Assembly: GCF_945957525.1 (NCBI RefSeq)
Contig: NZ_CAMFLA010000029.1
Span: 1 to 36,522, forward strand
Origin: an uncultured Aquitalea sp.
GTDB lineage: Bacteria; Pseudomonadota; Gammaproteobacteria; Burkholderiales; Chromobacteriaceae
Reading direction: 5' to 3'
Length of the DNA stretch: 36,522 bases
Shown here: in pieces, positions 422 to 16,180 of the stretch
Position numbering within the stretch: the stretch's first letter is position 1
How the letters are laid out: each line of letters starts with the position of its first letter
Program-made: the position numbers and the translations under genes
The notes under the pieces: model-generated
The model's database searches: none
What the model was told of the DNA's origin: nothing
What the model saw: only the letters and a program-made list of their open reading frames with translations

Positions 422-1540
422 TTACGATAGTGAGTCGCATCCATGAAAACTGGCACTCTCTGCGTGGCTTGCAATACGCTCAAGCTCGGTAATCACTTTT
501 ATGCTTGAGTGTTCCATTTCGGATATGTATCGGATCATATTTTGTATATCACCATGGTCGTGGGCTGCTAGGGCATCATGAGCATTGCTGTGGACAAGCT
601 CATGGTGCTTCTCTAACTCCCTAAATCCAGGCAGTGAAGAAAAGCATTGGCGACCTTCTCCTTGGTAGTACCATTTACCAAGCCTGCAGTTTGTGTGGCT
701 TGCAAAATTGTCGGCAGGATCTGACACAACTCCAAGTACTACCAAATAAATTCTAAATTTATAGATGATATGATCAAATTTCGCAACCTCACAAAATCCC
801 CGCAATGCATTTTTTGTAAGTGCTGTTTCTATACCAGCAGTGCTAGATAATAATTTCCCCATGATGATTGCCGATTGCTGCCCATCAGCGGAGAGTAGAC
901 TGATTTCTTCTGCTAGCTGTGCAACCTGAGCGCTACTGTTACCACTGCCAGAGCGAATTCCGTTTACAAGCTCTGAAATTTCAGTTGTCGCACCTTGCGT
1001 CCGCTCTGCCAGTTTTCTGACTTCATCTGCAACTACGGCAAATCCTCTCCCTTGCTCCCCTGCACGAGCAGCTTCAATGGCGGCATTCAGTGCTAGCAGA
1101 TTGGTTTGATCCGCTATTTCTTTAATTAAGTTGACAAACCCACTGACTTTCTGCGCTTGAATGTCAAGTTCGCCAATGTTTTCCGCTGTTTTTATGGAGC
1201 TCTCGGCAAGTAATTCAAGGCTTTTTGCCATCCTTGCGATGGCATCTTCTGCTTGCGCAGAATGGGTTTTTTCTTCAGAGACTTGCTCAATTTCAGAGCG
1301 CATGGCATCTGCAAGGGTTGCAAGTGATGCTTGCCCTTCTTGCATGGAGGTTGAGAATGTAACCAGGTTTTCTAGCAGGTGCTGATTCTCTTTAATTTGG
1401 CCTGCTAGCTTATCTCGCTCCTGCGTTATGCATAAAATCTCTGAAGTTAGGCTGTTGTTTTTTGATTCTAAAGCATGCATTGCATTCTTAATCTGTACTA
1501 GCTCATCTTCTGCTGGGTGTCTCTTGCGTTTGAAGAACAT
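422..1540 (-). CDS. Soluble CZB-domain methyl-accepting chemotaxis protein
   Basis: This is a cytoplasmic chemoreceptor of 372 residues with no signal peptide or membrane segment. An N-terminal coiled coil (about 12-90) leads into the signalling hairpin, with the near-universal tip [20 protein letters not shown] at about 147-166. The C-terminal third carries a chemoreceptor zinc-binding (CZB) domain with His257, Cys285 (in a CRLGKW motif), His313 and His317 as likely zinc ligands. In Helicobacter TlpD and related proteins the CZB Zn-thiolate responds to oxidants or zinc; whether this one does so is inference. A Shine-Dalgarno-like AAAGGAAAA precedes the ATG. The gene starts 34 bp after the methyltransferase stop and appears to be the last gene of the sqr-arsR-methyltransferase unit, which suggests taxis linked to sulfide or redox state. 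Confidence 0.85.
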
Positions 1541-1574
1541 GACTTTTCCTTTTTATATGAATAATCTTTAAGGG

Positions 1575-2210
1575 CTACAATCGCCTTGTTGCAATCATTC
1601 CAATAAGTGCAGACATGCCTTGATGCCGACTCCCTTCAGTTAGATTTTTTTCATACTCTTCCAGGAGTGTTATATCAAAGTCATGGAATGCAGTTTTGAG
1701 TAAGGTGCTAGTGTAGAGATTTTCAATGGCGGATGGACCACCGGTTCCATATTGAAGCTGCAAGGGTGTGTAGCCAACTAATAAAATGTTACCGCCAGGC
1801 TTGCAGAGCCGCTTCAGGTCTGAAAACTGTTTTTCTTGCTGTTTTTCTTTAGCAAATTGAATGAATACAGCAATAACCCAATCGTATTGGGAGTGGTTCG
1901 AGCCTGGCCACTGATCGTCTAGTATGTTTGCATGTTGATACTCGACAATAACTCCAGACTCATTGGCAAGCCTCCTAGCTTTGGCGAGTGCGCTATGAGC
2001 ATACTCAACAGCATGGACATGTAGCCCTTTTTGGGCCAGCCAAACTGAGTTTCTACCTTCTCCATCGGCGATGCAAATAGCAGTTTGCCCTGGTGAGAAC
2101 ATCTCTTTTTTTGCAGCGAGAAACTCATTTGGGTCTTTTCCAAAAAGGTAGTCATCGCCGGCACTGGTGTATCTCTCTTCCCAGTCAGTTTTGTCGTGGG
2201 GTTTAGTCAT
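1575..2210 (-). CDS. Class I SAM-dependent methyltransferase, TehB-like
   Basis: The product has 211 residues with a Rossmann methyltransferase fold. The SAM-binding region reads ADGEGRNSVWLAQ (about 49-61), followed by an acidic strand end VEYAHSALAKA. The N-terminal WEERYTSAGDDYLFGKDPNEF resembles TehB/thiopurine methyltransferase-like proteins that methylate small soft nucleophiles such as tellurite, selenium or thiols. The start codon overlaps the stop region of the arsR gene by 8 bp, so the two are probably translationally coupled. Context between a sulfide-responsive-type regulator and a chemoreceptor suggests a thiol, sulfide or other chalcogen acceptor, but the sequence does not show the substrate. 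Base composition is AT-richer than the flanking chromosome. Confidence 0.8.
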   Translation of the reverse strand: MTKPHDKTDWEERYTSAGDDYLFGKDPNEFLAAKKEMFSPGQTAICIADGEGRNSVWLAQKGLHVHAVEYAHSALAKARRLANESGVIVEYQHANILDDQWPGSNHSQYDWVIAVFIQFAKEKQQEKQFSDLKRLCKPGGNILLVGYTPLQLQYGTGGPSAIENLYTSTLLKTAFHDFDITLLEEYEKNLTEGSRHQGMSALIGMIATRRL

Positions 2211-2523
2211 GGTTCTTGATGTCAGAGTTGCTGTTTAGAACTAGGCGCTGTATTACGCGAAGAAGTTCTTCTACTTTGGGGTCCTGAATGGCATAGTAGA
2301 TAAATTTTCCGTTTCGCCTAGTTGATACGATCTGATTAACTCGAAGTACGGTGAGTTGCTGGGAGAGCGATGGTTGGGCAACACAGCTTAAAGAGCCAAG
2401 CTCTTTGACAGTTTTTTCACCATCTAACAGGTTAAACAAAAGGCATAGCCTGTCCTCGCTGCCAAGTATTTTCAATTTCCAGGCAACTGAACAGGCTACC
2501 CCCTTCAAGCTGTCAAGATTCAT
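2203..2523 (-). CDS. ArsR/SmtB-family repressor
   Basis: This is a winged-helix repressor of 106 residues. The recognition-helix region AQPSLSQQLTVLR (about 49-61) and the wing RRNGKFIYYAI (about 69-79) are typical of the ArsR family and close to the sulfide-responsive BigR/SqrR/YgaV branch. Those sensors use two cysteines, one before the HTH and one near the C-terminus. Here the cysteines are at 11, 27 and 47 and none lies near the C-terminus, so if it senses sulfur it does so with a different pair. It starts 27 bp after the sqr stop, overlaps the methyltransferase start, and has an AGGAAT ribosome site. The probable operators are the palindromes at 3858-3949. Confidence 0.88.
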   Translation of the reverse strand: MNLDSLKGVACSVAWKLKILGSEDRLCLLFNLLDGEKTVKELGSLSCVAQPSLSQQLTVLRVNQIVSTRRNGKFIYYAIQDPKVEELLRVIQRLVLNSNSDIKNHD

Positions 2524-2550
2524 AATTAGCCATTCCTGATGTGCTTGAAT

Positions 2551-3897
<1,347 letters not shown>

Positions 3898-3934
3898 CAA
3901 GTAAAGCAAAGAATGTGTGCCTGCCGTAGATGAT

Positions 3935-3949
3935 CTGTCTCATAGACAG
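3935..3949. promoter_or_regulatory. 15-bp palindrome, 6-3-6 type, upstream of RND operon
   Basis: CTGTCT-CAT-AGACAG is a perfect inverted repeat about 58 bp before the chosen start of the RND adaptor gene. It shares arm and spacer lengths with the palindrome at 3858-3872, though not its bases. Confidence 0.4.
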
Positions 3950-4006
3950 TAGCTGCTCACGTACGCGAAGCTCCTGAGAATGGCTAATTACCGAGGATGG
4001 AAGGTC

Positions 4007-5023
4007 ATGAGATTAAATCGTATTGCACTCTGTGTTGGCCTGCTTGCCTCCCCGTTTGGGTTTGCTCTAGAGCTACAGACGGTGACTATTACGGCAGGTG
4101 AAGGCCAAGGCTGGTATGAGGCTACGGGCACACTGCAGGCGGTGAAGTCGGCCCAATTGTCTGTCCCAGTGGCCGGTCGAATCACTCAACTGCCGGCTCA
4201 GGTAAATGCACAGGTCAAAGCAGGGCAGCTGTTGGCGCAGATCGACGGAGCTCCCGCTGAGCAGGCTGCCAATGCCAGTCGTGCCCAGATAGCTGCGGCG
4301 GAAGCTGGGCTAGCTCAAGCAAAAAGCGAGTTTGCTCGTGCCAAAGCGTTAGCTGACAAACAGTATCTGAGCGCATCTGCTTTTGAGAAAGCGCAGGCAC
4401 AGTACCGTATAGCTGAAGCGCAAGCGAAGGCCCAAATGGCTCAGGCAGGAGCTGCGACAGCACAAGCTGCGCTTTTTAGGCTGACGGCACCATTTGCAGG
4501 GGTAGTGGCTCGAGTAAATGGTGACCTTGGGGCTGTGACGATGCCCAGCCAGCCAATCGTTGAGCTGTATGACCCTGCTGCTTTGAGGGTGGAGGTGCAA
4601 CTGCCTGCTACAGCAATTGAAAGCCTGAAGCGCGACATATCTCCTCAAGTGACTCTTGCGGGCAGAAAACTCCCGGTAGAAGACGTGCAGTGGTTCCCGA
4701 CAACTGACCTGCAGGCTCAATCGCGTACCGTACGTATCCAGTTGCGGCCTGGGGTGAAAGCCACGCCGGGCAACAGCGCTCAAGTTCTATTTTCCACCGT
4801 AAGCAAAGGACAAATGGTGGTGCCTTCCACAAGTGTCCTCAGGTTTACTGAATTTTCCGCCGTGTACATTCTTACTCAAGATGGCACACCGCAAATGCGT
4901 TACATCCGTACAGGCAAGGTGCTGGGAGCGCAGACTGAAGTACTTTCCGGACTCAGGCGCGGAGATAAGCTGGTGCTTAACCCTGCAGCTGCACAAAGCA
5001 TGGCAGGAGGAGTTACAAAGTGA
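4007..5023 (+). CDS. RND periplasmic adaptor (membrane fusion) protein
   Basis: The product has 338 residues from the ATG at 4007. This start is preferred over the in-frame ATG at 3980 because it has a GAGGATGG ribosome site and begins directly with the signal peptide MRLNRIALCVGLLASPFGFA. The mature protein shows the adaptor order: a lipoyl half-motif around VPVAGRITQL, an Ala/Gln-rich helical hairpin (about residues 75-155) that docks on the outer-membrane channel, the second lipoyl half FRLTAPFAGVVARV, then the beta-barrel and membrane-proximal domains. There is no lipobox. It is the first gene of a plus-strand operon; its stop overlaps the GTG start of the pump gene. The substrate is unknown; the sulfur-gene context suggests a sulfur species. 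Confidence 0.9.
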   Translation: MRLNRIALCVGLLASPFGFALELQTVTITAGEGQGWYEATGTLQAVKSAQLSVPVAGRITQLPAQVNAQVKAGQLLAQIDGAPAEQAANASRAQIAAAEAGLAQAKSEFARAKALADKQYLSASAFEKAQAQYRIAEAQAKAQMAQAGAATAQAALFRLTAPFAGVVARVNGDLGAVTMPSQPIVELYDPAALRVEVQLPATAIESLKRDISPQVTLAGRKLPVEDVQWFPTTDLQAQSRTVRIQLRPGVKATPGNSAQVLFSTVSKGQMVVPSTSVLRFTEFSAVYILTQDGTPQMRYIRTGKVLGAQTEVLSGLRRGDKLVLNPAAAQSMAGGVTK

Positions 5024-8000
5024 ATTCTTCCAATCGGCTAGGCATTTCCGGTCGTCTGGCTGGCTTCTTCCAGTCGGCACACATCACACCATTGATGGGC
5101 TTGTTGGCAATTCTGCTTGGCTTGTTTGCTACAGTGGTGACTCCTCGAGAGGAGGAGCCACAAATCAACGTTACGATGGCGAATGTCATGGTGGCATTCC
5201 CCGGAGCCTCTGTGGGTACTGTAGAGGCTCAAGTGGCGCAGCCAGCTGAGCAGGTGCTGGGGCAGATTGATGGTGTGGATCACGTGTTCGCCGTTTCTCG
5301 TCCAGGAATGGCCATTCTGACGGTTCAATTCAAGGTGGGCGTGCCAAGAATTGATGCTCTCGTTCGACTCTATGACACCGTAAACAGCCATGCTGATTGG
5401 TTGCCCTCCAATCTCGGGACCTTGCCTCCCTTGATCAAACCAAAGGGAATTGATGATGTTCCCATTGTGACCTACACCCTTTACAACCAAGATGGAAGCC
5501 TTGGACGAGCTGATCTCGAGCACGTTGCGCACGTTGTCGAGGGTGAGCTGAAGAGGGTTCAGGGGACTCGTGACGTAGCCACGATTGGCGGTACTTCGGA
5601 ATCTGTCGGCGTGGAGTTCAGTCCCCAGCTGTTGGCTCGAGCCGGCCTCACACTGCAGGACGTGAGGCAAGCAATTGCAGCCGCCAACGTTTCCCTGCCG
5701 GCTGGCCAGATACTGAATCAGACTTCAACTCGTGTTGAGACTGGGCCTTTTCTGGCCACGGCGGATGATGTGGCGCAATTGGTTGTGGGCGTCAGCAATC
5801 ATCGTCCTGTCTTCTTGCGTGATGTCGCGCAAATCAAGCAAGGACCTCCTGCGCCTCAAAGCTACGTCTGGTACGGCGTGGCAGGAAAGACTGCTGCTGA
5901 GCATCCTGCCGTAACCATCAGTGTTACCAAGAAACCTGGAGAGAATGCGGTAGTAATTGCTGACAAGTTAAACGCGAAAATGGATAGCTTGCGTAATTCT
6001 GTTATCCCTCAGCAAGTTGATGTCGAGATGACGCGCAATTACGGTGAAACCGCCAATGAGAAAGCGGTCAAGCTGATTGAAAAACTGATCTTTGCAACAG
6101 CGTCAGTCGTCGTGCTGGTGTTTTTCTCCCTGGGCCGACGTGAGGCAGCTATTGTTGGGCTGGCAGTAGTCCTGACCTTGTCTGCCACCTTGTTCGCCTC
6201 TTGGGCATGGGGTTTCACGCTGAATCGAGTGTCACTCTTTGCACTGATCTTCTCGATTGGCATCCTTGTGGATGATGCTATTGTCGTTGTAGAAAACATT
6301 CACCGGCACAAGCTTCTCAAACCCGACGCGACACTTGCCAGCCTGATCCCTGCAGCTGTTGATGAGGTCGGTGGCCCAACCATTCTTGCGACATTGACAG
6401 TCATTGCTGCTTTGCTGCCAATGGCTTTCGTCAGTGGCTTGATGGGGCCATACATGAGCCCGATTCCCATCAATGCCTCGATGGGGATGATCATTTCTCT
6501 CGGAATTGCATTTTCAATCACGCCATGGTTAGCCAGACGCTGGCTGTCTAGTCATGCTCAGCATCAGGATGGACTGGCGGCAAAACTGCATCCATTGTCC
6601 CGCAAGGTGTTCATGCCCTTCTTGACCGAGCGTGGCGGAAAGAGCGCGCGGCAATGGCTGATGCTGTGTGTTATGGGGCTGTTGATGTTGTCTGTTGCCC
6701 TGCCTGTTGTCAGGTTAGTGACTTTGAAAATGCTGCCGTTTGACAATAAATCGGAATTGCAACTGGTGCTGGATATGCCCGCAGGTAGCTCACTCGAAGA
6801 TACCGCAGCTGCCTTGCATGAGATGACGGGCTGGCTGGCGAAACAGACCGACGTGAAAAATTACCAAGCCTATGCAGGTGTGGCGGCCCCCATCAACTTT
6901 AATGGCTTGGTACGACAATACTATTTGCGGACAGGCAATGAATCCGGAGATGTACAAGTCAATTTGCTTCCAAAGGGAGAGCGTCATCGTAGTAGCCATG
7001 ACATAGCTCTGGAATATCGCCCAGCACTGCAAAAAATTGCGGCGCGCTATGGTGCGCGTCTAAAGGTAGTCGAAGTGCCGCCCGGACCGCCAGTGATGGC
7101 TCCTATTGTTGCAGAGGTATATGGGCCCTCTTTGGGCGGGCGCGCTGAGGTCGCTGCGAAGGTTGAGGGGATTTTCCACAAAAGTGACGGCATAGTTGAC
7201 GTAGACAGTAGTGTTCAACCACTTCCAGCTAAGGTTGTTTTGAGCGTTGATAGGGAAAAGGCGATGCAGCATGGTGTTCCGCAAGCGGCTATCGCAGAGA
7301 CTCTTTCAATTGCCATGAATGGAGCTCCGGTCAGCTATCTGCATGATGGCAGCAAATACCCTACGGCCATCCAGTTGCGTTTGCCAGACAGTCAGAAAGG
7401 CGATCTTTCTAATGTATTGGCAACACCGGTTCGTGGAGGGGATGGGCTGGTGTTGCCACTCTCCTCATTACTGACAGTGCAGGCACAGCCTGAAGAGCGC
7501 GTGCGTTATCGCAAGGATGGTTTGCCTGTTGACTATGTGGTGGGCGATATGGCCGGAGGTGCGGATAGTCCACTCTATGGCATGTTTGAAATGCGCAATG
7601 CTGTACTGTCTACGCGCACTCCGAGCGGGGCTCCGCTTGCGGAGTATTTTATCAAGCAGCCCGCAGATGGCTTTAAACAGTATGCGCTCAAGTGGGATGG
7701 CGAGTGGCAGATCACATACGAAACGTTCCGCGATATGGGGGCAGCCTATGCGGTGGGGCTTATCCTGATTTATCTGCTGGTAGTGGCCCATTTCGGGTCA
7801 TACCTGGTGCCACTAATCATCATGGCTCCAATTCCACTCACCATCATCGGCGTTATGCCTGGTCATGCATTACTGGGGTCACAGTTCACTGCCACTTCGA
7901 TGATCGGAATGATTGCCCTGGCAGGGATCATTGTCCGCAACTCGATTTTGCTGGTTGACTTCATCCGGATGCAGGTAGAGGAGGGTATGTCGATGGAGGA

Positions 8001-8205
8001 GGCCGTCATCGCATCAGCAGCGACCCGTGCACAGCCCATCATGCTGACAGGCCTTGCCGCCATGATCGGTGCCTTCTTCATTCTGGACGATCCGATTTTC
8101 AATGGTTTGGCAATTTCGCTGATTTTCGGAATCATGGTTTCAACGATTCTGACGCTCGTGGTTATCCCGCTGCTGTACTACATGGCCTTCAAACCTAAAA
8201 ACTGA
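5020..8205 (+). CDS. RND-family efflux pump, inner-membrane permease
   Basis: This proton-driven transporter of 1061 residues has the AcrB/HAE1-like layout: one N-terminal membrane helix, a large porter domain, a helix block including SIGILVDDAIVVVENIHRH (about 412-430), a second porter domain and a C-terminal helix block. The two aspartates in the VDDA motif match the proton-relay pair of TM4. In the TM10 motif GIIVRNSILLVDF an Arg stands where AcrB has the relay Lys. The start is GTG at 5020, overlapping the adaptor stop by 4 bp. It probably forms a tripartite pump with the adaptor and the TolC-like protein at 8462. Its divergence from sqr and linkage to DUF2892 and rhodanese genes suggest reactive-sulfur or sulfide-toxicity efflux; the substrate cannot be read from sequence. 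Confidence 0.92.
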   Translation: MNSSNRLGISGRLAGFFQSAHITPLMGLLAILLGLFATVVTPREEEPQINVTMANVMVAFPGASVGTVEAQVAQPAEQVLGQIDGVDHVFAVSRPGMAILTVQFKVGVPRIDALVRLYDTVNSHADWLPSNLGTLPPLIKPKGIDDVPIVTYTLYNQDGSLGRADLEHVAHVVEGELKRVQGTRDVATIGGTSESVGVEFSPQLLARAGLTLQDVRQAIAAANVSLPAGQILNQTSTRVETGPFLATADDVAQLVVGVSNHRPVFLRDVAQIKQGPPAPQSYVWYGVAGKTAAEHPAVTISVTKKPGENAVVIADKLNAKMDSLRNSVIPQQVDVEMTRNYGETANEKAVKLIEKLIFATASVVVLVFFSLGRREAAIVGLAVVLTLSATLFASWAWGFTLNRVSLFALIFSIGILVDDAIVVVENIHRHKLLKPDATLASLIPAAVDEVGGPTILATLTVIAALLPMAFVSGLMGPYMSPIPINASMGMIISLGIAFSITPWLARRWLSSHAQHQDGLAAKLHPLSRKVFMPFLTERGGKSARQWLMLCVMGLLMLSVALPVVRLVTLKMLPFDNKSELQLVLDMPAGSSLEDTAAALHEMTGWLAKQTDVKNYQAYAGVAAPINFNGLVRQYYLRTGNESGDVQVNLLPKGERHRSSHDIALEYRPALQKIAARYGARLKVVEVPPGPPVMAPIVAEVYGPSLGGRAEVAAKVEGIFHKSDGIVDVDSSVQPLPAKVVLSVDREKAMQHGVPQAAIAETLSIAMNGAPVSYLHDGSKYPTAIQLRLPDSQKGDLSNVLATPVRGGDGLVLPLSSLLTVQAQPEERVRYRKDGLPVDYVVGDMAGGADSPLYGMFEMRNAVLSTRTPSGAPLAEYFIKQPADGFKQYALKWDGEWQITYETFRDMGAAYAVGLILIYLLVVAHFGSYLVPLIIMAPIPLTIIGVMPGHALLGSQFTATSMIGMIALAGIIVRNSILLVDFIRMQVEEGMSMEEAVIASAATRAQPIMLTGLAAMIGAFFILDDPIFNGLAISLIFGIMVSTILTLVVIPLLYYMAFKPKN

Positions 8206-8228: not shown

Positions 8229-8465
8229 ATGACTATCGAACGCTGCATTCGTTTTTTTGCCGGTCTTATGATTCTTGTTAGCTTGGCGCTTGGCGTACAG
8301 GCTAGCCCGATCTTTGTTTCAGCCAATTTCCTTTGGTTGACTGCTTTCGTAGGGGCAAATTTGTTTCAGTTCAGCCTGACCAATTTCTGCCCATTGGCGA
8401 TTTTGCTGAAAAAATTGGGGGTTCCGGAGTCTCGTGCTGGTTGCAGTAATGGAGGCTGTGTATGA
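8229..8465 (+). CDS. DUF2892 (YgaP-type) membrane protein
   Basis: This 78-residue protein has two hydrophobic helices (about 8-24 and 30-50), followed by the NFCPLAILLKKLGV motif typical of DUF2892, the domain fused to rhodanese in YgaP. Two further cysteines lie in the tail CSNGGCV, so a thiol- or persulfide-carrying role is plausible but not shown. The gene sits between the RND pump and the TolC-like gene, and its end overlaps the next ATG by 4 bp (ATGA). The separate rhodanese at 9818 may act as its partner, making this a split YgaP arrangement. Confidence 0.85.
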   Translation: MTIERCIRFFAGLMILVSLALGVQASPIFVSANFLWLTAFVGANLFQFSLTNFCPLAILLKKLGVPESRAGCSNGGCV

Positions 8466-9808
8466 AATCGGTAATGCTTTTGCTTGCCTCGGGATTCTTG
8501 AGCTCCGGAGCCCAAGCAACGGACCTTTTTCAGGCGTGGGAGGCCGCAGCAGGCCATGATCCCCAGTGGCTGGCGGATCAGTCGACGGCGAAAGCTGATG
8601 CTCAATTTGACTCTCAGGCGAGATCATTCTACTTGCCCAAGATCGGAGCCAGAGCGGGAATTGGACAAGGCAATCTAGTCCAGAACACTGAAGGGGCTCA
8701 TTTTGCTACGCCCAATATGTCTTCAGACCAGGTCCAGTTCAGCACTGATCTTAATAACGCCACGCGTCAGTATTGGGGAGTTGAGCTACGTCAGCCCCTA
8801 ATGGATGCGGCATCGTTTGCTATGGCGGCCCAGTTGAAAGAGCAGGCAAAAGCAGGAGCCTCTCAAGCTGATCTGAGGAAGCAAGATGCCATATTGCGTT
8901 TGGCCGATTGCTACTTCGGTGTTTTGAGTAGCCGTTCGATGCTGAGAGCTATTGAGGGTCAGCAGCAGGCAACTGCAAGAGCACTTGAAGTTGCCTCCGC
9001 AAGGTATCGCAATGGAGACATCCCGGTTACTGAAAAAGAGGAGGCTGCAGCCCGGCTGGAGTTGCTTCAGGCACAGATGCTCTCAGTCAAACAGCAAGTG
9101 GACCTCGCAGAGCAGAGGTACATGCTACTGACGGGTTTATCCTCTGTGCGTTTGGCCGACCTTTCTGAAATAAACGAAAAGTCTGGATTGGACATGCCCG
9201 ACCTGAAGAGTGCGGTGGAGGCGGCTCGCAAAAACAATCCGGTGGTAGCCATGGCACAGGCAACGGCACAGGCTTCCAAAGAAGAGGTTGAGAAATATCG
9301 TGCTTGGAAGTCCCCCAGGCTGGAGTTGGTTGCGCAGGCCGGAGAAGACCGTTGGAAAGCAGGTGTTGGGATGCAGAATAGCCGGCAGAGTTATGTGGGG
9401 CTTGAGCTGAATGTTCCGATTTTTACTGGGGGCTATCGGAGTGCCAAGCTGGAAGAGTCTCTGGCCAGGAGTGAAGCTAGTGAGGGGCACCTTAGCCAAG
9501 TTGAGAATTCGGCGGAAGACTTGGTTCGTAGTAGCTGGCTGGCGGTGAAGCAAGGGTTCAGTCGTGTTAAAGCACTGAAGCTGGCTAGATCAGCTACGTC
9601 TCGTCAACTGGATGCCACAAGACTGGGGCATGAGGAAGGAGCGCGGACCCTGTTGGATGTTCTTAACGTTCAGCAGACGGCTGCCACGATTGATAGTGAA
9701 CTGGATCGAGCGCGGTATGAAACGGCACTCTCTTGGCTGAGGGTGCATTCAGCCATCGGTGATTTGAGTATCGAGCAGTTGGCAAAACTGAATGCGTTGA
9801 TGAAGTAA
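8462..9808 (+). CDS. TolC-family outer-membrane channel protein
   Basis: The product has 448 residues with a signal peptide (MKSVMLLLASGFLSSGAQA) and two internally related halves rich in long amphipathic helices. Motifs such as DLFQAWEAAAGHDPQWLADQ near the N-terminus, and the second-half repeat DLKSAVEAARKNNPVVAMAQ, follow the outer-membrane efflux-protein pattern. It should trimerise to form the outer-membrane and periplasmic tunnel for the RND pump encoded just upstream. It is translationally coupled to the DUF2892 gene by ATGA overlap. It has no N-terminal lipobox cysteine, unlike NodT/OprM lipoproteins. Confidence 0.9.
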   Translation: MKSVMLLLASGFLSSGAQATDLFQAWEAAAGHDPQWLADQSTAKADAQFDSQARSFYLPKIGARAGIGQGNLVQNTEGAHFATPNMSSDQVQFSTDLNNATRQYWGVELRQPLMDAASFAMAAQLKEQAKAGASQADLRKQDAILRLADCYFGVLSSRSMLRAIEGQQQATARALEVASARYRNGDIPVTEKEEAAARLELLQAQMLSVKQQVDLAEQRYMLLTGLSSVRLADLSEINEKSGLDMPDLKSAVEAARKNNPVVAMAQATAQASKEEVEKYRAWKSPRLELVAQAGEDRWKAGVGMQNSRQSYVGLELNVPIFTGGYRSAKLEESLARSEASEGHLSQVENSAEDLVRSSWLAVKQGFSRVKALKLARSATSRQLDATRLGHEEGARTLLDVLNVQQTAATIDSELDRARYETALSWLRVHSAIGDLSIEQLAKLNALMK

Positions 9809-9817: not shown

Positions 9818-10129
9818 ATGTTTGATTTTCTTTTCAAAATGCTTGGGTCGCCAAATCAGCCTGTAGTTGTCAAAGCTGGGGCGGTGATTATCGACGTTCG
9901 TGAGCCCGCAGAGTATGCGAGTGGTCATGTGGCTGGAGCGATCAATATTCCGCTATCCGTGCTGCCTGAACATGTGGCTGACCTCAAGAGGCTTTCGAAG
10001 CCATTGGTAGTGTATTGCAGATCTGGAGCACGCTCCGGGATGGCGCGGAAGATGTTGGTTGATGCTGGCGTCGAGGATGTTATCAATGGGAAGAATGCTT
10101 CAACGGTAAGCCGTATTCTGGGAGCCTAG
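9818..10129 (+). CDS. Single-domain rhodanese-like sulfurtransferase
   Basis: A single rhodanese domain of 103 residues with no signal peptide. The CDC25-like DVREPAEYASGHVAGAINIP is at about 26-45 and the active-site loop CRSGAR carries the catalytic cysteine. Such proteins transfer sulfane sulfur from persulfide donors to thiols or cyanide. It lies 9 bp after the TolC-like gene with an AAGGAGAG ribosome site, so it belongs to the RND operon. Together with the DUF2892 protein it reproduces the two halves of YgaP on separate chains. Confidence 0.9.
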   Translation: MFDFLFKMLGSPNQPVVVKAGAVIIDVREPAEYASGHVAGAINIPLSVLPEHVADLKRLSKPLVVYCRSGARSGMARKMLVDAGVEDVINGKNASTVSRILGA

Positions 10130-10134
10130 CCATC

Positions 10135-10449
10135 ATGCCTCTGCCACAGCTATCAAATTTTGTAGTGTTTGTGGTGTTGGGATTCCTTGTTGTTGCTTTA
10201 GAAGCAAAGCTATTACGGCTCCTGGGCCTCGTACGGTTGTCAGTGCTGATTGGTAGAGAGAAGGACTTTTACTCGTCATTCCGCGCGGGCATCGTGGTGA
10301 GTTTGGCTATTGCACTGGCTTATGGCTTTTACCGTTATGGGGTTGGCGAAGTCGTGGCTCAAGTACTCGCAGTACTCGCAGGTTTCTTGCTCTTCTCTGG
10401 CGTGGCTTTCTTGGCAGTCGGGGTAAGAGGAATAATTAAGAAAAAGTGA
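10135..10449 (+). CDS. Small integral membrane protein of unknown function
   Basis: I do not recognise a family in this 104-residue protein. It has about three hydrophobic helices (residues 8-30, 50-68 and 72-96) separated by a charged segment GREKDFYSSFRAG, and ends in a basic tail KKK. It starts 5 bp after the rhodanese stop, with GGGAG about 10 bp upstream of the ATG, and is probably the last gene of the RND operon. Cysteines are absent, so it is unlikely to carry sulfur itself; a transporter accessory or electron-transfer scaffold are possibilities. Confidence 0.7.
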   Translation: MPLPQLSNFVVFVVLGFLVVALEAKLLRLLGLVRLSVLIGREKDFYSSFRAGIVVSLAIALAYGFYRYGVGEVVAQVLAVLAGFLLFSGVAFLAVGVRGIIKKK

Positions 10450-10465
10450 TAATGATGCTAGAGGG

Positions 10466-10479
10466 TTGATCTTCATCAA
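10466..10479 (+). promoter_or_regulatory. FNR/ANR-type binding site
   Basis: TTGAT-CTTC-ATCAA matches the FNR consensus (TTGAT-N4-ATCAA) at all ten specified bases. A TAACAT -10 candidate lies at 10501-10506, so the site would be centred near -41, the class II activator position. It would make the DUF3149 and second rhodanese genes inducible under low oxygen. Confidence 0.75.
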
Positions 10480-10542
10480 GAATGCATGAAGCCGTACGCA
10501 TAACATGGTTATGTTTCCGGCATCTACTTTGTGGAGAGAACC

Positions 10543-10680
10543 ATGTATCTACTGAAAGAACTGCTATCCGATGATGTTGGTGTTCTGAGTGTTATAACCA
10601 TTGTCATCGCGACGCTTGTGGTTGTTGGGGCCATCTGGATTGTAGTGAAAAAAGTGAAGAACGCTGGTCCCAATGACTGA
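10543..10680 (+). CDS. DUF3149 family single-helix membrane protein
   Basis: This small gene encodes 45 residues starting MYLLKELLSDDVGVLSVITI, with one hydrophobic helix (about 13-36) and a short basic tail. The LLSDDVG-then-helix pattern matches DUF3149, a family of tiny proteobacterial membrane proteins often near respiratory genes. A GGAGAG ribosome site lies 5 bp upstream of the ATG. It stands directly behind the FNR-type promoter and 28 bp ahead of the second rhodanese. A role as a small respiratory-complex or membrane-assembly factor is possible but unproven. Confidence 0.75.
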   Translation: MYLLKELLSDDVGVLSVITIVIATLVVVGAIWIVVKKVKNAGPND

Positions 10681-10708
10681 TTGATGCCATATCATATCAG
10701 GAGTTGAA

Positions 10709-11092
10709 ATGTTTATACCCGCCCATGAGTTCGTTCAAAAAGCCAAAAGTGGAATTTGTGAGATTTCGCTTGAGGATGCTGAGAAAATCGTGGTGAGTAA
10801 GGCTTCACTTGTGCTGGACGTGCGCGAGCCGGGTGAGTTTCAAGAGGGGCATCTACTTGGTGCGGTAAATATTCCTCGTGGAATGTTGGAGTTTGTTTTG
10901 TCTGCCCAGCCAGAATTGCAAGATACGAGCAAAGAAGTGCTTGTTTACTGTAAGACAGGTGGGAGGGCTGCGCTGGCTGCTATATCGTTGCAAGCGATGG
11001 GCTTTGAAAATGTCAAATCGATTGCGGGTGGCTATGATGGATGGCATGCTTCAGGCCGTATGGTAGCCCTGCCTAATATTTCTTTTGATTGA
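10709..11092 (+). CDS. Rhodanese-like sulfurtransferase, second copy
   Basis: A single rhodanese domain of 127 residues with DVREPGEFQEGHLLGAVNIP and active-site loop CKTGGR. Unlike the copy at 9818, it has an N-terminal extension of about 15 residues and an acidic helix (ISLEDAEKIV). No signal peptide is seen, so it is likely cytoplasmic. AGGAG lies 7 bp before the ATG. It is co-directional with the DUF3149 gene behind a perfect FNR-type site, and an intrinsic terminator follows at 11114. It probably handles persulfide sulfur made by SQR under oxygen limitation. Confidence 0.9.
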   Translation: MFIPAHEFVQKAKSGICEISLEDAEKIVVSKASLVLDVREPGEFQEGHLLGAVNIPRGMLEFVLSAQPELQDTSKEVLVYCKTGGRAALAAISLQAMGFENVKSIAGGYDGWHASGRMVALPNISFD

Positions 11093-11113
11093 TTTCTTTT
11101 GCATCCACTCTTG

Positions 11114-11137
11114 GCCCACGTACAGTGGGCTTTTTTT
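11114..11137 (+). terminator. Intrinsic terminator after second rhodanese gene
   Basis: GCCCAC (11114-11119), a 5-nt loop and GTGGGC (11125-11130) are followed by seven T residues. It lies 22 bp after the rhodanese stop. Confidence 0.85.
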
Positions 11138-11282
11138 ATTGTTGCCGGCAAGAAGATTTTTACTTGGTCTGTTCGCCATTATTGTCAAAAGCATTGTGCT
11201 CATGACGCAGGAAGGGGCTGAGTGGTTGTTGGTTGGTATGGAAATTGCTCTAAGCATGTCCACCAAGGTTGTGTTTACTTGA

Positions 11283-11312
11283 CCCCCGCCTATTTCTGCG
11301 GGGGTGTTTTTT
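11283..11312 (+). terminator. Strong hairpin overlapping the 3' end of the fisR-like gene
   Basis: CCCCCGC (11283-11289) pairs with GCGGGGG (11298-11304) and is followed by a T-rich run on the plus strand. On the minus strand the hairpin encompasses the last codons and stop of the sigma-54 activator, so convergent genes share it. Confidence 0.75.
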
Positions 11313-12645
11313 TTATTGTCGATGCCTCAATGCCTGCCAAGTGCCGATACAGTGTGCGCTCTGTTACTTGCAGCCTTACGGCCAGTTCACGGCGGTTAAG
11401 TCCGCTCTGCGTGACGGCCCATTTCAAGTAGCGAGACTCCAATTCTTTCAGGGGTTGAAGATCAGACTGGAAGAATGGGCTATCTGTGCAGAGTTTGGTT
11501 TGGGGTGCGGCTATCCAGGGCTCATTGCGCAGGTGTTCTACAGTAATGACATCGCTGTCGCTTAGGAGGCTGGCGCGCTCTAGTGTATTGCGCAATTCAC
11601 GCACGTTGCCCCTGAAGGATTGGCTCATAAGCCAGTCGAAGGCTGCTGGTTCTAGTTGCACTGCACGGTCAGGAGCCACGCGCTCCAGCAGGGCCGAGGC
11701 CAGCAAGGGGATGTCCTCCCGCCGTTCGCGCAGGGGGGGCAGGCGAATCGGAAACACCGCAAGTCGGTAGTAGAGATCTGCGCGAAACTCGCCGGTTGCC
11801 ACCATTTCTTCTAGTTGCCTGTGGGTGGCGGCAATCAGTCGGAAACGTGCTGGAATGCTGGCGATGCCGCCCACGCGGCGGAAAGTGCCTGTCTCTAGTA
11901 GACGTAGCAGCTTGACTTGTTGTGACAAGGGTAAATCACCGATTTCATCCAGAAACAGTGTGCCTCCGTGGGCAGCCTCCACCAGTCCCTGCTTGCGCTG
12001 ATTGGCGCCGGTGAAAGCACCTTTCTCATAGCCGAATAGCTCGCTTTCGAACAAAGTATCGTTGAGGCTGGCACAGTCAACGGCAATGAACGGCCGTGTC
12101 GAATCTCCGCCATTGTCGTGAATGGCGCGCGCCAAGCCTTCCTTGCCAGTACCGGATTCTCCTAACAACAACACACTGGCCTGTGCTGGCGCGGCGCGTT
12201 GTGCCAGCAACAACATGCGGCGAAAGGCTTCGCTGCGACCGACCATGCGGTCAGGTGCGGGCTGGCTGCTGGCCAATTGCACGGGCTTCATTTTCTCGAT
12301 GAACAAATGCCGATGGCCACTGATGTTGGCCATCGGCATGAGCTCTACATCTACATGCTCGTCCCCATGAGAGGTGCGATGGATGTGCAGCACCCGCTCC
12401 GGCTTGCCACTGAGCAAGGTCTGCCGAAGAGGGCAGGACTCGCCCTCTTCGTCGCAAGGACGGGCATATCCGTGTGATACCTCATAGCAATACTTGCCCG
12501 TCGGTTCCTCACCGTAGGCTGTGCGATAGGCGGGGTTGGCGTGCAGGATGCGGAAGTCTTCCGTGATGGCGATACGTGGCTCATCAATGGCGTCCAGCAT
12601 GCGACTGATGGTTGCAAGGCTGGACTCGCTAGTGAGAGGTGACAT
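11290..12645 (-). CDS. fisR: Sigma-54-dependent activator, FisR-like polysulfide sensor
   Basis: This enhancer-binding protein of 451 residues has an N-terminal PAS-like sensor (about 12-120), an AAA+ domain and a C-terminal Fis-type HTH. Walker A is GESGTGKE (162-169), the sigma-54 contact loop GAFTGA is at 209-214 and the Walker B region reads [12 protein letters not shown]. The HTH is [17 protein letters not shown]. The sensor has cysteines at 53, 64 and 71, the spacing I recall for Cupriavidus FisR, which uses these residues to sense sulfane sulfur and switch on sulfide oxidation genes. That functional match is inference. The gene is divergent from the cyd operon and faces a near-consensus -24/-12 promoter at 12726. 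Confidence 0.88.
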
Positions 12646-12681
12646 TCTGCAATTCCTGTCATGACGTATTTAGCATGTTGG

Positions 12682-12693
12682 GGCAATTTTGCC
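12682..12693. promoter_or_regulatory. Candidate upstream activator palindrome for the cyd promoter
   Basis: GGCAA-TT-TTGCC is an inverted repeat about 33 bp upstream of the -24 box at 12726. A second palindrome, GTCATGAC, is at 12658-12665. Either could be the enhancer bound by the divergent FisR-like activator. The assignment rests only on symmetry and position. Confidence 0.35.
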
Positions 12694-12725
12694 ACGAAAC
12701 GGGCTCTCTGACGGGTTTTTTACTG

Positions 12726-12741
12726 TGGCATGGCAATTGCA
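12726..12741 (+). promoter_or_regulatory. Sigma-54 (-24/-12) promoter of the cyd operon
   Basis: TGGCATG-GCAA-TTGCA matches the sigma-54 consensus TGGCACG-N4-TTGCW at all but one position, with the invariant GG (12727-12728) and GC (12739-12740) 12 bp apart. It points toward cydP, which starts 45 bp downstream. The adjacent divergent gene encodes a sigma-54 activator, so the pair forms a coherent control unit. Confidence 0.85.
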
Positions 12742-12786
12742 ATCAGAAAACTTCGGAGTGCTATAACCAGAAAAGTCTGATCAATT

Positions 12787-13023
12787 ATGAGAACCATGTA
12801 TATGCAAGCACCGCACGGTAAACACGGGTTCACGAAGTTGCCCGTCTCGCATCTGGGGCTTGAGATAGCGGGTATTCTGCTGCTCAAGCTGGTGTTGTTG
12901 ATTGTGTTGTGGCGAACATTCATTGCGCCCAACCAGGTGAAGGTAGACGCTGATACGGCGGCAGCCAGCTTGCTATCAATCACACAGGCGGCTGTGCAGG
13001 GGGAGAAGACCAATGCTCGATAA
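12787..13023 (+). CDS. cydP: CydP-like cytochrome bd accessory subunit
   Basis: This 78-residue protein has one membrane helix (about 24-44, EIAGILLLKLVLLIVLWRTF) followed by a short periplasmic-type tail. The pattern of a helix ending WRTFIAP resembles the putative small cytochrome-oxidase subunit CydP that precedes cydAB in many beta- and gammaproteobacteria. Starts at 12787 and 12796 are both possible; neither has a strong ribosome site. It is the first gene after the sigma-54 promoter and overlaps the cydA start by 11 bp, which supports a role in assembling or stabilising the oxidase. Confidence 0.7.
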   Translation: MRTMYMQAPHGKHGFTKLPVSHLGLEIAGILLLKLVLLIVLWRTFIAPNQVKVDADTAAASLLSITQAAVQGEKTNAR

Positions 13024-14566
13024 TGTTGTCGATCTGTCGCGCCTGCAGTTTGCAGTGACCGCGCTGTATCACTTTCTTTTTGTGCCGCTGACTTTGGGTA
13101 TGGTTTGGCTCCTGGTGATCATGGAGTCGGTATGGGTAATGACTGGCAAACAGGTGTATCAGGACATGACCCGCTTTTGGGGCAAACTGTTTGGCATCAA
13201 TTTCGCGCTGGGGGTAACGACCGGCATCACCATGGAGTTCCAGTTCGGCACCAACTGGGCCTACTACTCCCACTATGTGGGCGATATCTTTGGAGCTCCG
13301 TTGGCCATTGAGGGCTTAATGGCCTTCTTTCTGGAATCAACCATGATCGGCCTGTTCTTTTTTGGTTGGGATCGCCTGTCGCGCAAGCAGCATCTACTGG
13401 TAACACTTCTAATGGCCGTTGGTACCAATCTGTCGGCGCTGTGGATTCTCATCGCCAACGGCTGGATGCAGAACCCGGTGGGGGCGGAGTTCAGCTATCA
13501 GACCATGCGCATGGAAATGACGGACTTTGTCGCCTTACTGTTCAACCCGGATGCACAGGCCAAGTTTGTGCATACCGTCAGCGCGGGCTATGTCACTGGA
13601 GCCATGTTCGTACTGTCTATTTCCAGTTACTACCTGTTACGTGGCCGCAATGTGGAATTCGCCGGCAAGAGCTTCCGCATTGCGGCCGCTTTTGGTTTCG
13701 CCAGTGTATGTTCGGTAATCGTACTTGGGGATGAGTCTGGCTATACGGTGGGTGAGGCGCAGCAAACCAAGATGGCCGCCATTGAAGCTATGTGGCATAC
13801 CGAACCTGCACCGGCCTCATTCAATCTGTTGGCTTGGCCAAATGAGGCGAAGATGGAGAACGACTGGCAGATCAGCGTTCCTTGGGTGATGGGGCTTATT
13901 GGCACTCGTTCACTGAGCAAGGAAATTCCGGGCATACACGAGATCATGGCGCAGAACCGCTTGCGCATTGCCTCTGGCATCGAGGCGGTGAAAGCGCTGG
14001 AAGTCTTGCGTGGCAAGCAACCCACGGCCGAGGCGAAGTCCGTATTTGAGAAGCATAAGCGTGACTTGGGTTTTGGTTTGCTGGTGAAGAAGTACAGCGC
14101 CGATGTAGCAGCGGCCACGCCCGCCATGCTGGATGCTGCCGCACGAGACACCATTCCGCGCGTTGCTCCCATGTTCTGGAGTTTCCGTCTGATGGTCCTT
14201 ATGGGTTTTGCCATGCTGGGCTTATTCGGGTGGGCTTTCTGGAGTTCCATCAAGGGCAATTTCGCCCATCGGCCAGGGTTGCTGAAATTCGCACTTTGGT
14301 GCCTGCCGCTCCCATGGTTGGCCTGCGAGGTGGGTTGGTTTGTTGCTGAATACGGCCGACAGCCTTGGACCATCTACGGTGTGCTGCCAACGCGGCTTTC
14401 GGTTTCGACGCTATCGGAGTCCTCGCTGTATGGCTCTATGGCTGGTTTCGTGGGCTTCTATACGGTGCTGTTGATTATCGAAATGTACCTGATGGTGCGT
14501 TTCGCCAAGCAGGGGCCTGGCAGCCTGGGCACCGGCCGTTATGACCAAGAAGCTGTTCACCACTAA
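13013..14566 (+). CDS. cydA: Cytochrome bd ubiquinol oxidase subunit I
   Basis: CydA binds the haems of cytochrome bd and oxidises quinol at the periplasmic face, passing electrons to oxygen without pumping protons. The product has 517 residues, close to the 522 of the E. coli protein. It begins with LSRLQFAVTALYHFLFVPLT, carrying the conserved N-terminal haem-ligand histidine, and contains the GRQPW motif (about 448-452). The quinol-loop region, including KRDLGFGLLVKKYS, is the long E. coli type rather than the short type of the cyanide-insensitive CIO branch. Cytochrome bd is known to resist sulfide inhibition, which fits the island's sulfide genes. The start overlaps cydP; cydB follows after 9 bp. 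Confidence 0.97.
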   Translation: MLDNVVDLSRLQFAVTALYHFLFVPLTLGMVWLLVIMESVWVMTGKQVYQDMTRFWGKLFGINFALGVTTGITMEFQFGTNWAYYSHYVGDIFGAPLAIEGLMAFFLESTMIGLFFFGWDRLSRKQHLLVTLLMAVGTNLSALWILIANGWMQNPVGAEFSYQTMRMEMTDFVALLFNPDAQAKFVHTVSAGYVTGAMFVLSISSYYLLRGRNVEFAGKSFRIAAAFGFASVCSVIVLGDESGYTVGEAQQTKMAAIEAMWHTEPAPASFNLLAWPNEAKMENDWQISVPWVMGLIGTRSLSKEIPGIHEIMAQNRLRIASGIEAVKALEVLRGKQPTAEAKSVFEKHKRDLGFGLLVKKYSADVAAATPAMLDAAARDTIPRVAPMFWSFRLMVLMGFAMLGLFGWAFWSSIKGNFAHRPGLLKFALWCLPLPWLACEVGWFVAEYGRQPWTIYGVLPTRLSVSTLSESSLYGSMAGFVGFYTVLLIIEMYLMVRFAKQGPGSLGTGRYDQEAVHH

Positions 14567-14575
14567 GGAGACATC

Positions 14576-15715
14576 ATGCTGGATTACGCAAGCCTGAAAG
14601 TGATCTGGTGGCTGCTGGTGGGGGTGCTGCTGGTCGGCTTCGCCATCATGGATGGCCACGATATGGGCGTGGGAACCCTGTTGCCCTTTGTCGGGCGTGA
14701 CGATACCGAGCGCCGCGTCATCATTAACACGGTCGGACCGCACTGGGACGGGAATCAAGTATGGTTCATTACCGGAGGTGGTGCGATTTTTGCCGCCTGG
14801 CCGTTGGTGTACGCCACTGCATTTTCTGGTTTCTATTGGGCGATGCTGGTAGTGCTGTGGTCGCTGTTTTTCCGCCCGGTCGGGTTTGACTACCGCAGCA
14901 AGATTGATAACCCGTCCTGGCGGCGGCTGTGGGACTGGGGCTTGTTCATCGGTGGCGCGGTTCCGCCGCTGATCTTTGGTGTAGCCTTTGGCAATTTGTT
15001 GCAGGGTGTGCCTTTTCATTTCGACAGTACCTTGCAGTCCACTTATGAGGGTAGCTTCTGGGCGCTGCTGAACCCCTTCGCCCTGCTGTGCGGTGTGGTG
15101 TCTTCTTCCATGATTACGTTGCACGGTGCCGTGTATCTGGCACACCGTACAGAGGGGGACATCCAGAGACGTGCACTTGTCTGGGTGAAAGTGGCTGGCT
15201 GGCTGCTGCTGGCAGCCTTCAGCGTAGCCGGTGTGTGGCTGGCATCGGGTATTGAGGGCTACGTCATCACTTCGGTGATCGATCCCAATTCTCTGCCAGA
15301 CCCACTGGCTAAAACCGTAAGCCGAGCATCTGGCGCGTGGCTGGCCAATTACCGTCACTGGCCGCTGACCCTGTTGGTGCCGATGTTGGCATACATGGGT
15401 ACGCTTGGAGCTATGGGGTTGGCTCGGCGGGGGCATACTTTTGCTGCTTTTTGGGCTTCTGCAATAGCCCTGACAGGTATCATCGGCACGGCAGGGGTCA
15501 GTATGTTTCCTTTCGTCATGCCTTCATCCAGCCATCCTGAGGCCAGCCTGACGGTATGGGACAGTGTATCCAGTCACCTGACGCTGGGGCTGATGCTCGG
15601 GGCAACGCTGATTTTCATGCCCATTATCATTATTTACACCCGCTGGGCTTACCGCGTTATGCGCGGCAAGGTGACTGCCGCCTATGTGCGGGAAAACAGC
15701 CATAGTGCGTACTGA
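14576..15715 (+). CDS. cydB: Cytochrome bd ubiquinol oxidase subunit II
   Basis: CydB is the second core subunit of the oxidase, structurally similar to CydA and needed for haem incorporation. The product has 379 residues with about nine membrane helices and the family signature GFAIMDGHDMGVGTLLPF (about 22-39), followed by the conserved GPHWDGNQVWFITGGGA. A GGAGAC ribosome site lies 4 bp upstream of the ATG. It continues the cydP-cydA run and is followed within 2 bp by the NifX/NafY-like gene. Confidence 0.97.
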   Translation: MLDYASLKVIWWLLVGVLLVGFAIMDGHDMGVGTLLPFVGRDDTERRVIINTVGPHWDGNQVWFITGGGAIFAAWPLVYATAFSGFYWAMLVVLWSLFFRPVGFDYRSKIDNPSWRRLWDWGLFIGGAVPPLIFGVAFGNLLQGVPFHFDSTLQSTYEGSFWALLNPFALLCGVVSSSMITLHGAVYLAHRTEGDIQRRALVWVKVAGWLLLAAFSVAGVWLASGIEGYVITSVIDPNSLPDPLAKTVSRASGAWLANYRHWPLTLLVPMLAYMGTLGAMGLARRGHTFAAFWASAIALTGIIGTAGVSMFPFVMPSSSHPEASLTVWDSVSSHLTLGLMLGATLIFMPIIIIYTRWAYRVMRGKVTAAYVRENSHSAY

Positions 15716-15716
15716 C

Positions 15717-16076
15717 ATGGAAATTGCTATTGCTAGCCAGAACCGGCGTACCACTACAGCCCATGCCGGGAAATGCACTCACTTCTGGGTTCTGAATACA
15801 GAGAAGGGTAGCTGTGTCAGCTTACAACTCGAACCTGAGCAGATGTTATCGCTGGCAGGTGATTTGGCGGAGCATCCGCTGCAGCAGGTTGATGTTGTAC
15901 TCGCTGCAAGTGCTGGCCAGCAGCTGGCAGCGCGTCTTGCTTCCGTTGGTACGATTTTGTCGCTGACCGAACATGGCGACCCAAGAGCTGCTGCTGAAGC
16001 TTGGCTTAAGGGCTGCAGGCCGGCTCCGTCGGTGGATGGCAATGGGCGCTGTCTGATGATTATAGGGAGAACGTAA
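15717..16076 (+). CDS. NifX/NafY-like (dinitrogenase iron-molybdenum cofactor domain) protein
   Basis: The product has 119 residues from the ATG at 15717, chosen because MEIAIASQNRRTTTAHAGKC is the canonical opening of the PF02579 fold. Later blocks (HPLQQVDVVLAASAGQQLAARL, broken by normal loops) and the final DPRAAAEAWLKG fit the same domain, which binds metal clusters in nitrogenase cofactor proteins and occurs alone in many non-diazotrophs. It sits between cydB and cydX; its TAA overlaps the cydX ATG. No nif genes are seen here, so a nitrogenase role is unlikely. A metal- or haem-related assembly job for the oxidase is a guess from position. Confidence 0.8.
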   Translation: MEIAIASQNRRTTTAHAGKCTHFWVLNTEKGSCVSLQLEPEQMLSLAGDLAEHPLQQVDVVLAASAGQQLAARLASVGTILSLTEHGDPRAAAEAWLKGCRPAPSVDGNGRCLMIIGRT

Positions 16077-16180
16077 TGTGGTATTTCGCGTGGGTATTAG
16101 GCATCGGCTTTGCTGTTTCATTGGGTATTTTGAATGCCTTGTGGGGAGAGCACGAAGAAGAACGAAACCAGATGAATTGA
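16076..16180 (+). CDS. cydX: Cytochrome bd small subunit CydX
   Basis: This 34-residue single-helix protein begins MWYFAWVLGIGFAVSLGILN and continues ALWGEHEEE, matching the CydX/YbgT signature (MWYFxWxLG with an acidic tail). CydX packs against CydA and stabilises the haems of cytochrome bd. The ATG shares its A with the TAA of the preceding gene, implying translational coupling. It closes the cydP-cydA-cydB-NifX-like-cydX operon. Confidence 0.93.
   Translation: MWYFAWVLGIGFAVSLGILNALWGEHEEERNQMN

Follow-up and report, generated by a model that had tools for sequence, protein, structure and literature searches.

A recurring SQR-RND pump unit joined to a genus-typical FisR-cydPAB block on an insertion at tRNA-Ser in an uncultured Aquitalea sp.

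Why do genes for sulfide oxidation, tripartite efflux, sulfur transfer and a cytochrome bd oxidase stand side by side on one piece of DNA, and do they work together? The question is raised by a contig of an uncultured Aquitalea sp. (NZ_CAMFLA010000029.1; C29 of the 35 contigs of a 4.05 Mb genome), which was analysed at its whole length of 36,522 nucleotides (nt) and is referred to here as the window. An initial annotation had read positions 422..16180 as one island, a transferable kit for respiration in sulfide-rich, low-oxygen habitats. All gene classes that it named are present as intact open reading frames (ORFs) within an insertion at a tRNA-Ser gene, on which a recurring unit of sulfide:quinone oxidoreductase (SQR) and RND pump is joined to a FisR-cyd block typical of the genus.

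By its relation to a solved SQR and by its cysteines, the window SQR (2551..3837, minus strand) is assigned to type I: it scores 589 bits with structure 3sz0, is aligned with it over nearly the whole length, and its Cys127, Cys159 and Cys353 align with the three redox-related cysteines of that structure, which we take to be an A. ferrooxidans-type, type I SQR. Assignment to type III (model NF049943) was rejected (100 bits, cut-off 525). The SQR gene heads a minus-strand row, with gaps of 27, -8 and 34 nt, that continues with genes for an ArsR-family regulator (2203..2523; NF033788, 65.1 bits, cut-off 55), a class I S-adenosylmethionine (SAM)-dependent methyltransferase (1575..2210; PF13649, 4.6e-12) and a cytoplasmic-type chemoreceptor with a C-terminal CZB zinc-binding domain (422..1540; PF00015, 7.9e-32; PF13682, 9.3e-16).

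The pump operon is divergent from this row and lies on the plus strand. It encodes an RND periplasmic adaptor (3980..5023; TIGR01730, 161.9 bits, cut-off 94.9), the RND permease (5020..8205; PF00873, 7.8e-142), a YgaP-like (DUF2892) small membrane protein of 78 amino acids (aa) (8229..8465; PF11127, 8.4e-13), a TolC-family outer membrane channel (8462..9808; PF02321, 1.9e-39) and a single-domain rhodanese with Cys67 (9818..10129; PF00581, 1.4e-15), and ends with a hydrophobic 104-aa ORF (10135..10449) that starts 5 nt after the rhodanese; the gaps along the row are -4, 23, -4, 9 and 5 nt. The predicted DUF2892 protein is present, but its true place is the 78-aa ORF between permease and TolC. 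The 104-aa ORF, tried as DUF2892, was rejected; searches of Pfam, NCBIfam and PHROGs assigned it to no family, and nothing matching it was found in the first 80 pump loci (see below). An AcrB-family permease, an adaptor, a TolC channel and an Asp pair in transmembrane helix 4, the last of which we take to be an HAE-type mark, together characterize the pump as an HAE-type tripartite system. The HAE-like proton-relay residues of the permease, D418, D419 and R973, were invariant across 79 aligned permeases.

The association of SQR with the pump was followed in 300 genomes of the order, the window's own included; the comparisons use the 299 others. Permease matches at E<=1e-100 occurred in 133 of the 300 genomes and matches of at least 56% identity in 103 of the 299, whereas for SQR the numbers were 98/300 (E<=1e-60) and 93/299 (at least 55% identity). 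SQR was present in 67 of the 103 genomes with the pump vs 26 of the 196 without it (Fisher p 1e-19, uncorrected for genome relatedness). In 28 of the 67 genomes with both, belonging to 15 families, the two genes lay no more than 6 kb apart, where about 0.2 would be expected. A distant permease (36-44% identity) found in 29 genomes had SQR within 6 kb in three of them. At those thresholds neither pump nor SQR was found in the three same-genus and five other same-family genomes. The initial annotation had proposed a search for such co-occurrence and had named its absence as an argument against the idea; this argument falls away, since SQR and the pump are co-conserved. They form a recurring, coherent unit.

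Outside the window there were 104 close pump places, 80 of which were fetched as a first locus set. Near the pump these loci contained the adaptor in 78 cases, a rhodanese in 38, SQR in 25 (two of them just 22-23% identical), ArsR in 20, TolC in 17, cydB in 8 (one 29% identical), cydA in 7, the methyltransferase in 4 and the chemoreceptor in 1; about 25 of the rhodanese cases, at a common secB-gpsA locus (clusters c11 and c7), may be incidental. Among 80 named loci, of which at least four are the same DNA as loci of the first set, a YgaP-like match occurred in 72, the adaptor in 71, TolC in 29, SQR in 24 (one 25% identical), a rhodanese in 22, ArsR in 12, cydA in 5 and the methyltransferase in 3. 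Stricter clustering of ORFs recovered the YgaP-like gene in only 34 of 81. Named genomes with the pumps closest to that of the window (best 80 of 592) were mostly Burkholderiales and other betaproteobacteria. SQR is placed between adaptor and permease or after the pump, and divergently in the window. Three loci of one genus (L036, L037 and L044) bring together ArsR, adaptor, permease, YgaP-like protein, TolC, SQR, rhodanese, cydA, cydB and methyltransferase, and SQR, pump and cydAB occur together in these three and in L033, L046, L047, L050 and L135. Over 25 loci the identities of SQR and permease were correlated with r 0.28, but this comparison says little on co-transfer, because two distant SQR paralogues dominate the spread.

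The unit was also found in a plasmid collection, which contains a few chromosome-sized records as well. Permease matches at E<=1e-150 were obtained in 53 records, SQR matches at E<=1e-80 in 31 and both in 22; the pump was within 8 kb of SQR in 21 of the 31 records with SQR (21 of the 22 with both). Among six records inspected in detail, the plasmid of Asticcacaulis sp. AND118 was closest to the window: it has ArsR, SAM methyltransferase, DUF2892 and SQR genes divergent from rhodanese, adaptor and permease, and like the window it holds a CZB-domain protein. Unlike the window it is alphaproteobacterial, its permease is 42.8% identical, and the stretch shown has no FisR or cyd genes. The Azospirillum and Rhizobium plasmids carry an FAD oxidoreductase (the SQR match), DUF2892, ArsR and the pump; the Aeromonas record, which is unannotated, has matches to SQR, YgaP-like protein, ArsR and pump, and on the Vibrio plasmid DUF2892 and the pump occur, but SQR does not.

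Sulfane-sulfur ArsR repressors (SqrR/BigR/HlyU) are defined by two conserved cysteines, and their operons, including those of SqrR/BigR/sHdrR type, resemble the window in having ArsR beside sqr, rhodanese and RND genes; RND pumps are among the neighbours of these regulators (PMC12423496, section 2.1 for the cysteines and operons). In the first locus set 51 ArsRs lay upstream of the pump, and 32 of them had both SqrR-type cysteines. The pair was present in all 25 co-directional ArsRs and in 7 of the 26 divergent ones, whereas the other 19 divergent ArsRs had a different cysteine pattern. These 19 (L035, L038-L043, L045-L051, L054, L056, L059-L061) mostly have a C-terminal CxxxC instead, and possibly represent a second type of sensor for the same pump. 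The window ArsR, unlike the SqrR/BigR/sHdrR type, lacks the two defining cysteines and scores 69 bits with NF040642, for which the cut-off is 155. A candidate operator for it is an AT-rich inverted repeat (3883..3897) between the divergent operons. This repeat, TTTATATTATATAAA, is the sole all-AT inverted repeat with arms of at least 7 within positions 1-19000. AT repeats resembling it were found in L036, L037 and L044; L053, L055 and L058, which have related ArsRs, had no AT inverted repeat with arms of at least 6. A scan of the window for sigma-70 promoters gave 12 hits vs 13.1 in shuffles, i.e. no excess.

The methyltransferase is also associated with SQR (METHYLTRANSFERASE): SQR was found in 63 of the 105 genomes having the methyltransferase vs 30 of the 194 without it, at a threshold (E<=1e-25) loose enough to include matches of only about 28% identity. 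It adjoins SQR in two genomes (G209 and G239) and a persulfide dioxygenase (PDO)-like gene in a third (G003), and its nearest solved structure is Slr1183 (E 1.5e-30). SAM enzymes of 204 and 210 aa have been described that methylate H2S (PMC12904073). Size and neighbourhood, which are the only pointers, suggest that the window enzyme could be an H2S/MeSH S-methyltransferase (Mdd).

The borders of the island are marked by a perfect 25-nt direct repeat. The left copy (275..299) recurs as the 3' end (18735-18759) of a tRNA-Ser(TGA) gene (18735..18822, minus strand), which gives an insertion of 18.46 kb extending from 275 to 18759 rather than from 422 to 16180. These attachment (att) repeats are the only two copies; a genome-wide search that allowed up to 3 mismatches gave no third. 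Just inside both ends are ATTTGGGGC repeats (347..364 and 18588..18627, both plus strand), a repeat family whose members are possible arm sites of an integrase. In all eight same-genus loci that were fetched (11-20 kb each) tRNA-Ser adjoins recN, and the island proteins have no match there. A tRNA end perfectly repeated at the two borders is what an integrative island should have, but an integrase of its own was not found: the genome has four PF00589 matches, all on other contigs (serine recombinases were not searched as such), and no transfer gene was found on this contig either. In G253, of the same genus, a tyrosine recombinase directly adjoins tRNA-Ser, and the site is therefore used by other elements, too. 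The att repeats, foreign composition and patchy distribution agree with the notion of a transferable kit, but as the contig has no detected integrase or transfer gene, "transferable" can refer only to an apparent past insertion, deduced from the borders, and present mobility is conjectural.

The island is physically one insertion, as had been supposed, but its composition is mosaic. GC content at third codon positions (GC3) shifts stepwise along it: 0.39-0.49 for chemoreceptor, methyltransferase, ArsR and SQR, 0.48-0.56 for the pump operon, 0.43 for a second rhodanese, 0.63-0.67 for FisR, cydA and cydB, 0.52 for a NifX-like gene and 0.61-0.77 for lysis genes, whereas three core genes have 0.77-0.85. 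Taking into account the att repeats, the empty sites of the relatives and the stepwise GC3, the island is a genuine insertion, but a mosaic one. It consists of three parts: the SQR-ArsR-methyltransferase-chemoreceptor operon, the divergent adaptor-RND-YgaP-like-TolC-rhodanese operon, and a rhodanese-FisR-cydPAB part starting with the second rhodanese (Cys81; 10709..11092, plus strand; PF00581, 6.4e-21). Since fisR has as neighbours a CZB chemoreceptor and a 55% identical methyltransferase in one relative (L229), and in another (L230) such a chemoreceptor together with a 54% identical rhodanese, the chemoreceptor, the methyltransferase and the second rhodanese may be part of the cyd neighbourhood of the genus rather than of the SQR-pump unit.

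In the third part a FisR-like sigma-54 activator (11290..12645, minus strand; PF00158, 5.8e-66; PF08448, 4.5e-8) faces the genes cydP (12787..13023; NF045611, 41.0 bits, cut-off 29.6), cydA (13013..14566; PF01654, 2.2e-172) and cydB (14576..15715; TIGR00203, 510.4 bits, cut-off 117.3), all on the plus strand; CydA and CydB are both above the cut-offs of their families, as required for a cytochrome bd oxidase. The activator has a PAS domain and the cysteines Cys53, Cys64 and Cys71, presumably the numbering of Cupriavidus FisR, and the combination of three conserved N-terminal-domain cysteines with a sigma-54 AAA domain places it, as judged from its sequence, in the FisR family. FisR senses via three conserved cysteines (PMC9774590). 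Upstream of cydP there is a sigma-54-type promoter site (12726..12741, plus strand), and the motif TGGCAT-N5-TTGCA stands in the same place between fisR and cydA in all seven genus cyd loci that were fetched; the pattern fits in one of four other family loci. In these seven loci FisR is 72-77% and CydB 80-83% identical, and recN is present in none of them. CydA is 87-88% identical in eight of nine other genus genomes, and the only other CydA match of the window's own genome is 38% identical. FisR-cydAB is a genus-typical block that lies elsewhere in the genomes of the relatives, and the earlier view of it as part of a foreign kit has to be abandoned.

Outside the genus a FisR homologue (44%) is encoded divergently from annotated cydP, cydB and cydX genes on a plasmid of Pseudoalteromonas xiamenensis (L243), a stretch matched by both CydA and CydB of the window. 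A FisR-like activator facing cydP-cyd is thus seen in this gammaproteobacterium and in the genus loci L224-L230. The arrangement makes FisR a candidate for coupling cytochrome bd directly to the sensing of sulfane sulfur. In A. baumannii, cydAB is reported to be induced by sulfide (PMC7315123), and a FisR-type sensor located opposite the oxidase genes would be a testable account of this induction. FisR-controlled pdo-sqr systems of Cupriavidus and Acinetobacter (PMC7315123, PMC9774590) share with the window the activator family, the three cysteines and the divergent sigma-54 arrangement, but in the window the activator faces cydPAB and the PDO-like gene is on another contig. The homologue in C. 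metallidurans (48% identical, three cysteines kept) is divergent from a gene of metallo-beta-lactamase fold followed by a Pyr_redox_2 gene, which we read as pdo-sqr.

One of the nearest published counterparts is the operon Dsui_3440-3443 of Azospira suillum PS, which encodes an unknown small protein, an RND permease, SQR and an RND MFP (adaptor) subunit (PMC5358917). The comparison is by gene content; the order is the adaptor-SQR-permease-YgaP-like order of several of the fetched loci. In the window, unlike in Azospira, SQR is divergent, TolC, rhodanese, methyltransferase, chemoreceptor, FisR and cyd are added, and the whole is an att-bounded insertion. The Azospira operon is highly expressed under H2S and conspicuous in Bar-seq, the direction of the effect not being seen in the parts of the article cited, and a separate DUF2892 gene is up about tenfold (PMC5358917). 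The response to sulfide that the initial annotation expected has thus been reported for an operon of the same gene content. Since this operon was published as H2S-induced, the core of the combination was not undescribed. The exact full gene set of the island was found in none of the 160 loci (two sets of 80, at least four duplicated). No published account of the substrate of this pump or of such an att-bounded island was among the matches listed, subscription journals being mostly outside their scope.

How may the parts cooperate? We consider it fairly probable that the island is a composite sulfide-defence set, in which oxidation, efflux and sulfide-resistant respiration are combined under a sulfane-sulfur-sensing activator. 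SQR would oxidise sulfide to sulfane sulfur and pass the electrons to quinone, and the RND-TolC pump, the YgaP-like protein and the rhodanese would remove a toxic product of this chemistry. The SQR and pump operons, which appear to share a divergent promoter region with the AT palindrome next to the ArsR gene, are probably switched together. The FisR-type activator with its three cysteines would drive the bd oxidase from the sigma-54 promoter, and the oxidase would re-oxidise quinol, so that SQR turnover could continue under sulfide. Induction by sulfide in this host and roles for the methyltransferase and the chemoreceptor are presumed, and a low-oxygen habitat is conjecture. The joint occurrence of pump and SQR in several classes and on plasmids directs attention to the fate of the sulfane sulfur made by SQR, and a sulfane-sulfur compound, with polysulfide or persulfide as first choice, is the likeliest substrate. 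Only tentatively do we suggest that exporting sulfane sulfur, in the form of polysulfide, glutathione persulfide or another such SQR product, is the dedicated function of the pump, to which the YgaP-like protein and the rhodanese deliver sulfur. If this were true, sulfane sulfur would extend the substrates of RND pumps by a new class, and an 'oxidise and expel' defence against sulfide would have been spread by plasmids and islands across Proteobacteria and some cyanobacteria. The idea that the pump substitutes for PDO was unsupported: the pump was present in 17 of the 20 SQR genomes having a PDO-like gene and in 50 of the 73 without one, these genes being PDO-like in that no genome reached the family's cut-off and only the dioxygenase part is covered by the matches. 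The host's own PDO-like gene is on contig C14; none was seen on the contig of the window.

Several observations weigh against a composite sulfide-defence set. The 79 aligned permeases have no conserved cysteine; SQR of at least 55% identity is absent from 36 of the 103 pump genomes, and the Alloyangia plasmid has the pump alone, without sulfur genes. In Azospira, H2S was oxidised at the same rate after deletion of SQR or of the complete operon, and the authors proposed that RND pumps raised under H2S export metal sulfides (PMC5358917). In the window ArsR the SqrR/BigR cysteine positions hold F and L, its cysteines being at 11, 27 and 47. The fisR-cyd block does not accompany the pump elsewhere: FisR was near the pump in none of the first 80 loci and in two of the 80 named loci. 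The sigma-54 pattern occurs 31 times in the window vs 34.3 expected by chance, and beside the FisR homologue of Cupriavidus nothing matches the window SQR, so that the neighbour there is not a close type I SQR and would be of another type.

These points bear on the alternatives to different degrees. The proposal made for Azospira, applied here, is that metal-sulfide complexes, or metals freed under sulfide stress, are what the pump expels, and that it shares operons with SQR since both respond to the same stress; the ArsR family does include metal sensors, and the 19 ArsRs with another cysteine pattern would fit. The permease, however, is far below the HME (CusA/CzcA) model (TIGR00914, 234.2 bits, cut-off 701.45) and has the HAE-type Asp-Asp pair, and the sulfane-sulfur cysteine pair is present in most of the upstream ArsRs, so that we regard this explanation as unlikely. 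A general multidrug pump that came to lie near sulfur genes by accident would account for the pump genomes without a close SQR and for the nearest solved structures of the permease, which are multidrug pumps such as MexK; but YgaP-like protein, rhodanese, ArsR and SQR accompany the pump in other classes, too, and none of the NCBIfam permease models listed is matched by the permease at or above its curated cut-off. We hold an accident to be very improbable. The island as a whole might be a chance accumulation at a tRNA hot spot, with SQR-pump, cyd block and phage genes each acquired on its own and not cooperating. The GC3 steps, the phage lysis cassette, the genus-typical cyd block with its other locus in relatives and the near absence of FisR from pumps elsewhere speak for it, whereas the recurrence of SQR and pump as a unit, the eight loci combining them with cydAB and the sulfide induction of cydAB in A. 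baumannii speak against it, and we hold it to be quite unlikely. With respect to SQR and pump it is compatible with the sulfide-defence set; the two conflict only over the cyd block.

The remaining features of the contig are minor. Positions 1-274, left of the att repeat, where the contig ends, had no blastn match in 20 fetched family loci. A phage lysis cassette (Rz-like spanin, GH19 endolysin and two holins, by PHROGs matches; 16348..18091, minus strand) lies between the cyd block and tRNA-Ser, and other phage genes were not seen on the island; it gave 66 matches to phage records, all of 60-80% identity and none covering 80% of the query, and no source phage was identified among them. Beside cydB there is a gene for a NifX/FeMo-Co-like protein (15684..16076, plus strand; PF02579, 3.2e-4, below the curated cut-off), with such a match in three of the seven fetched genus loci and in three family loci. 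Two further cydA copies, 70% identical to that of the window, are on the small contigs C34 and C35 of G253. Between the pump operon and the second rhodanese a 45-aa DUF3149 membrane protein is encoded (10543..10680, plus strand; PF11346, 1e-9). The genes listed by the initial annotation are real, but this one, ArsR, the att repeats, cydP and the lysis cassette have to be added to them.

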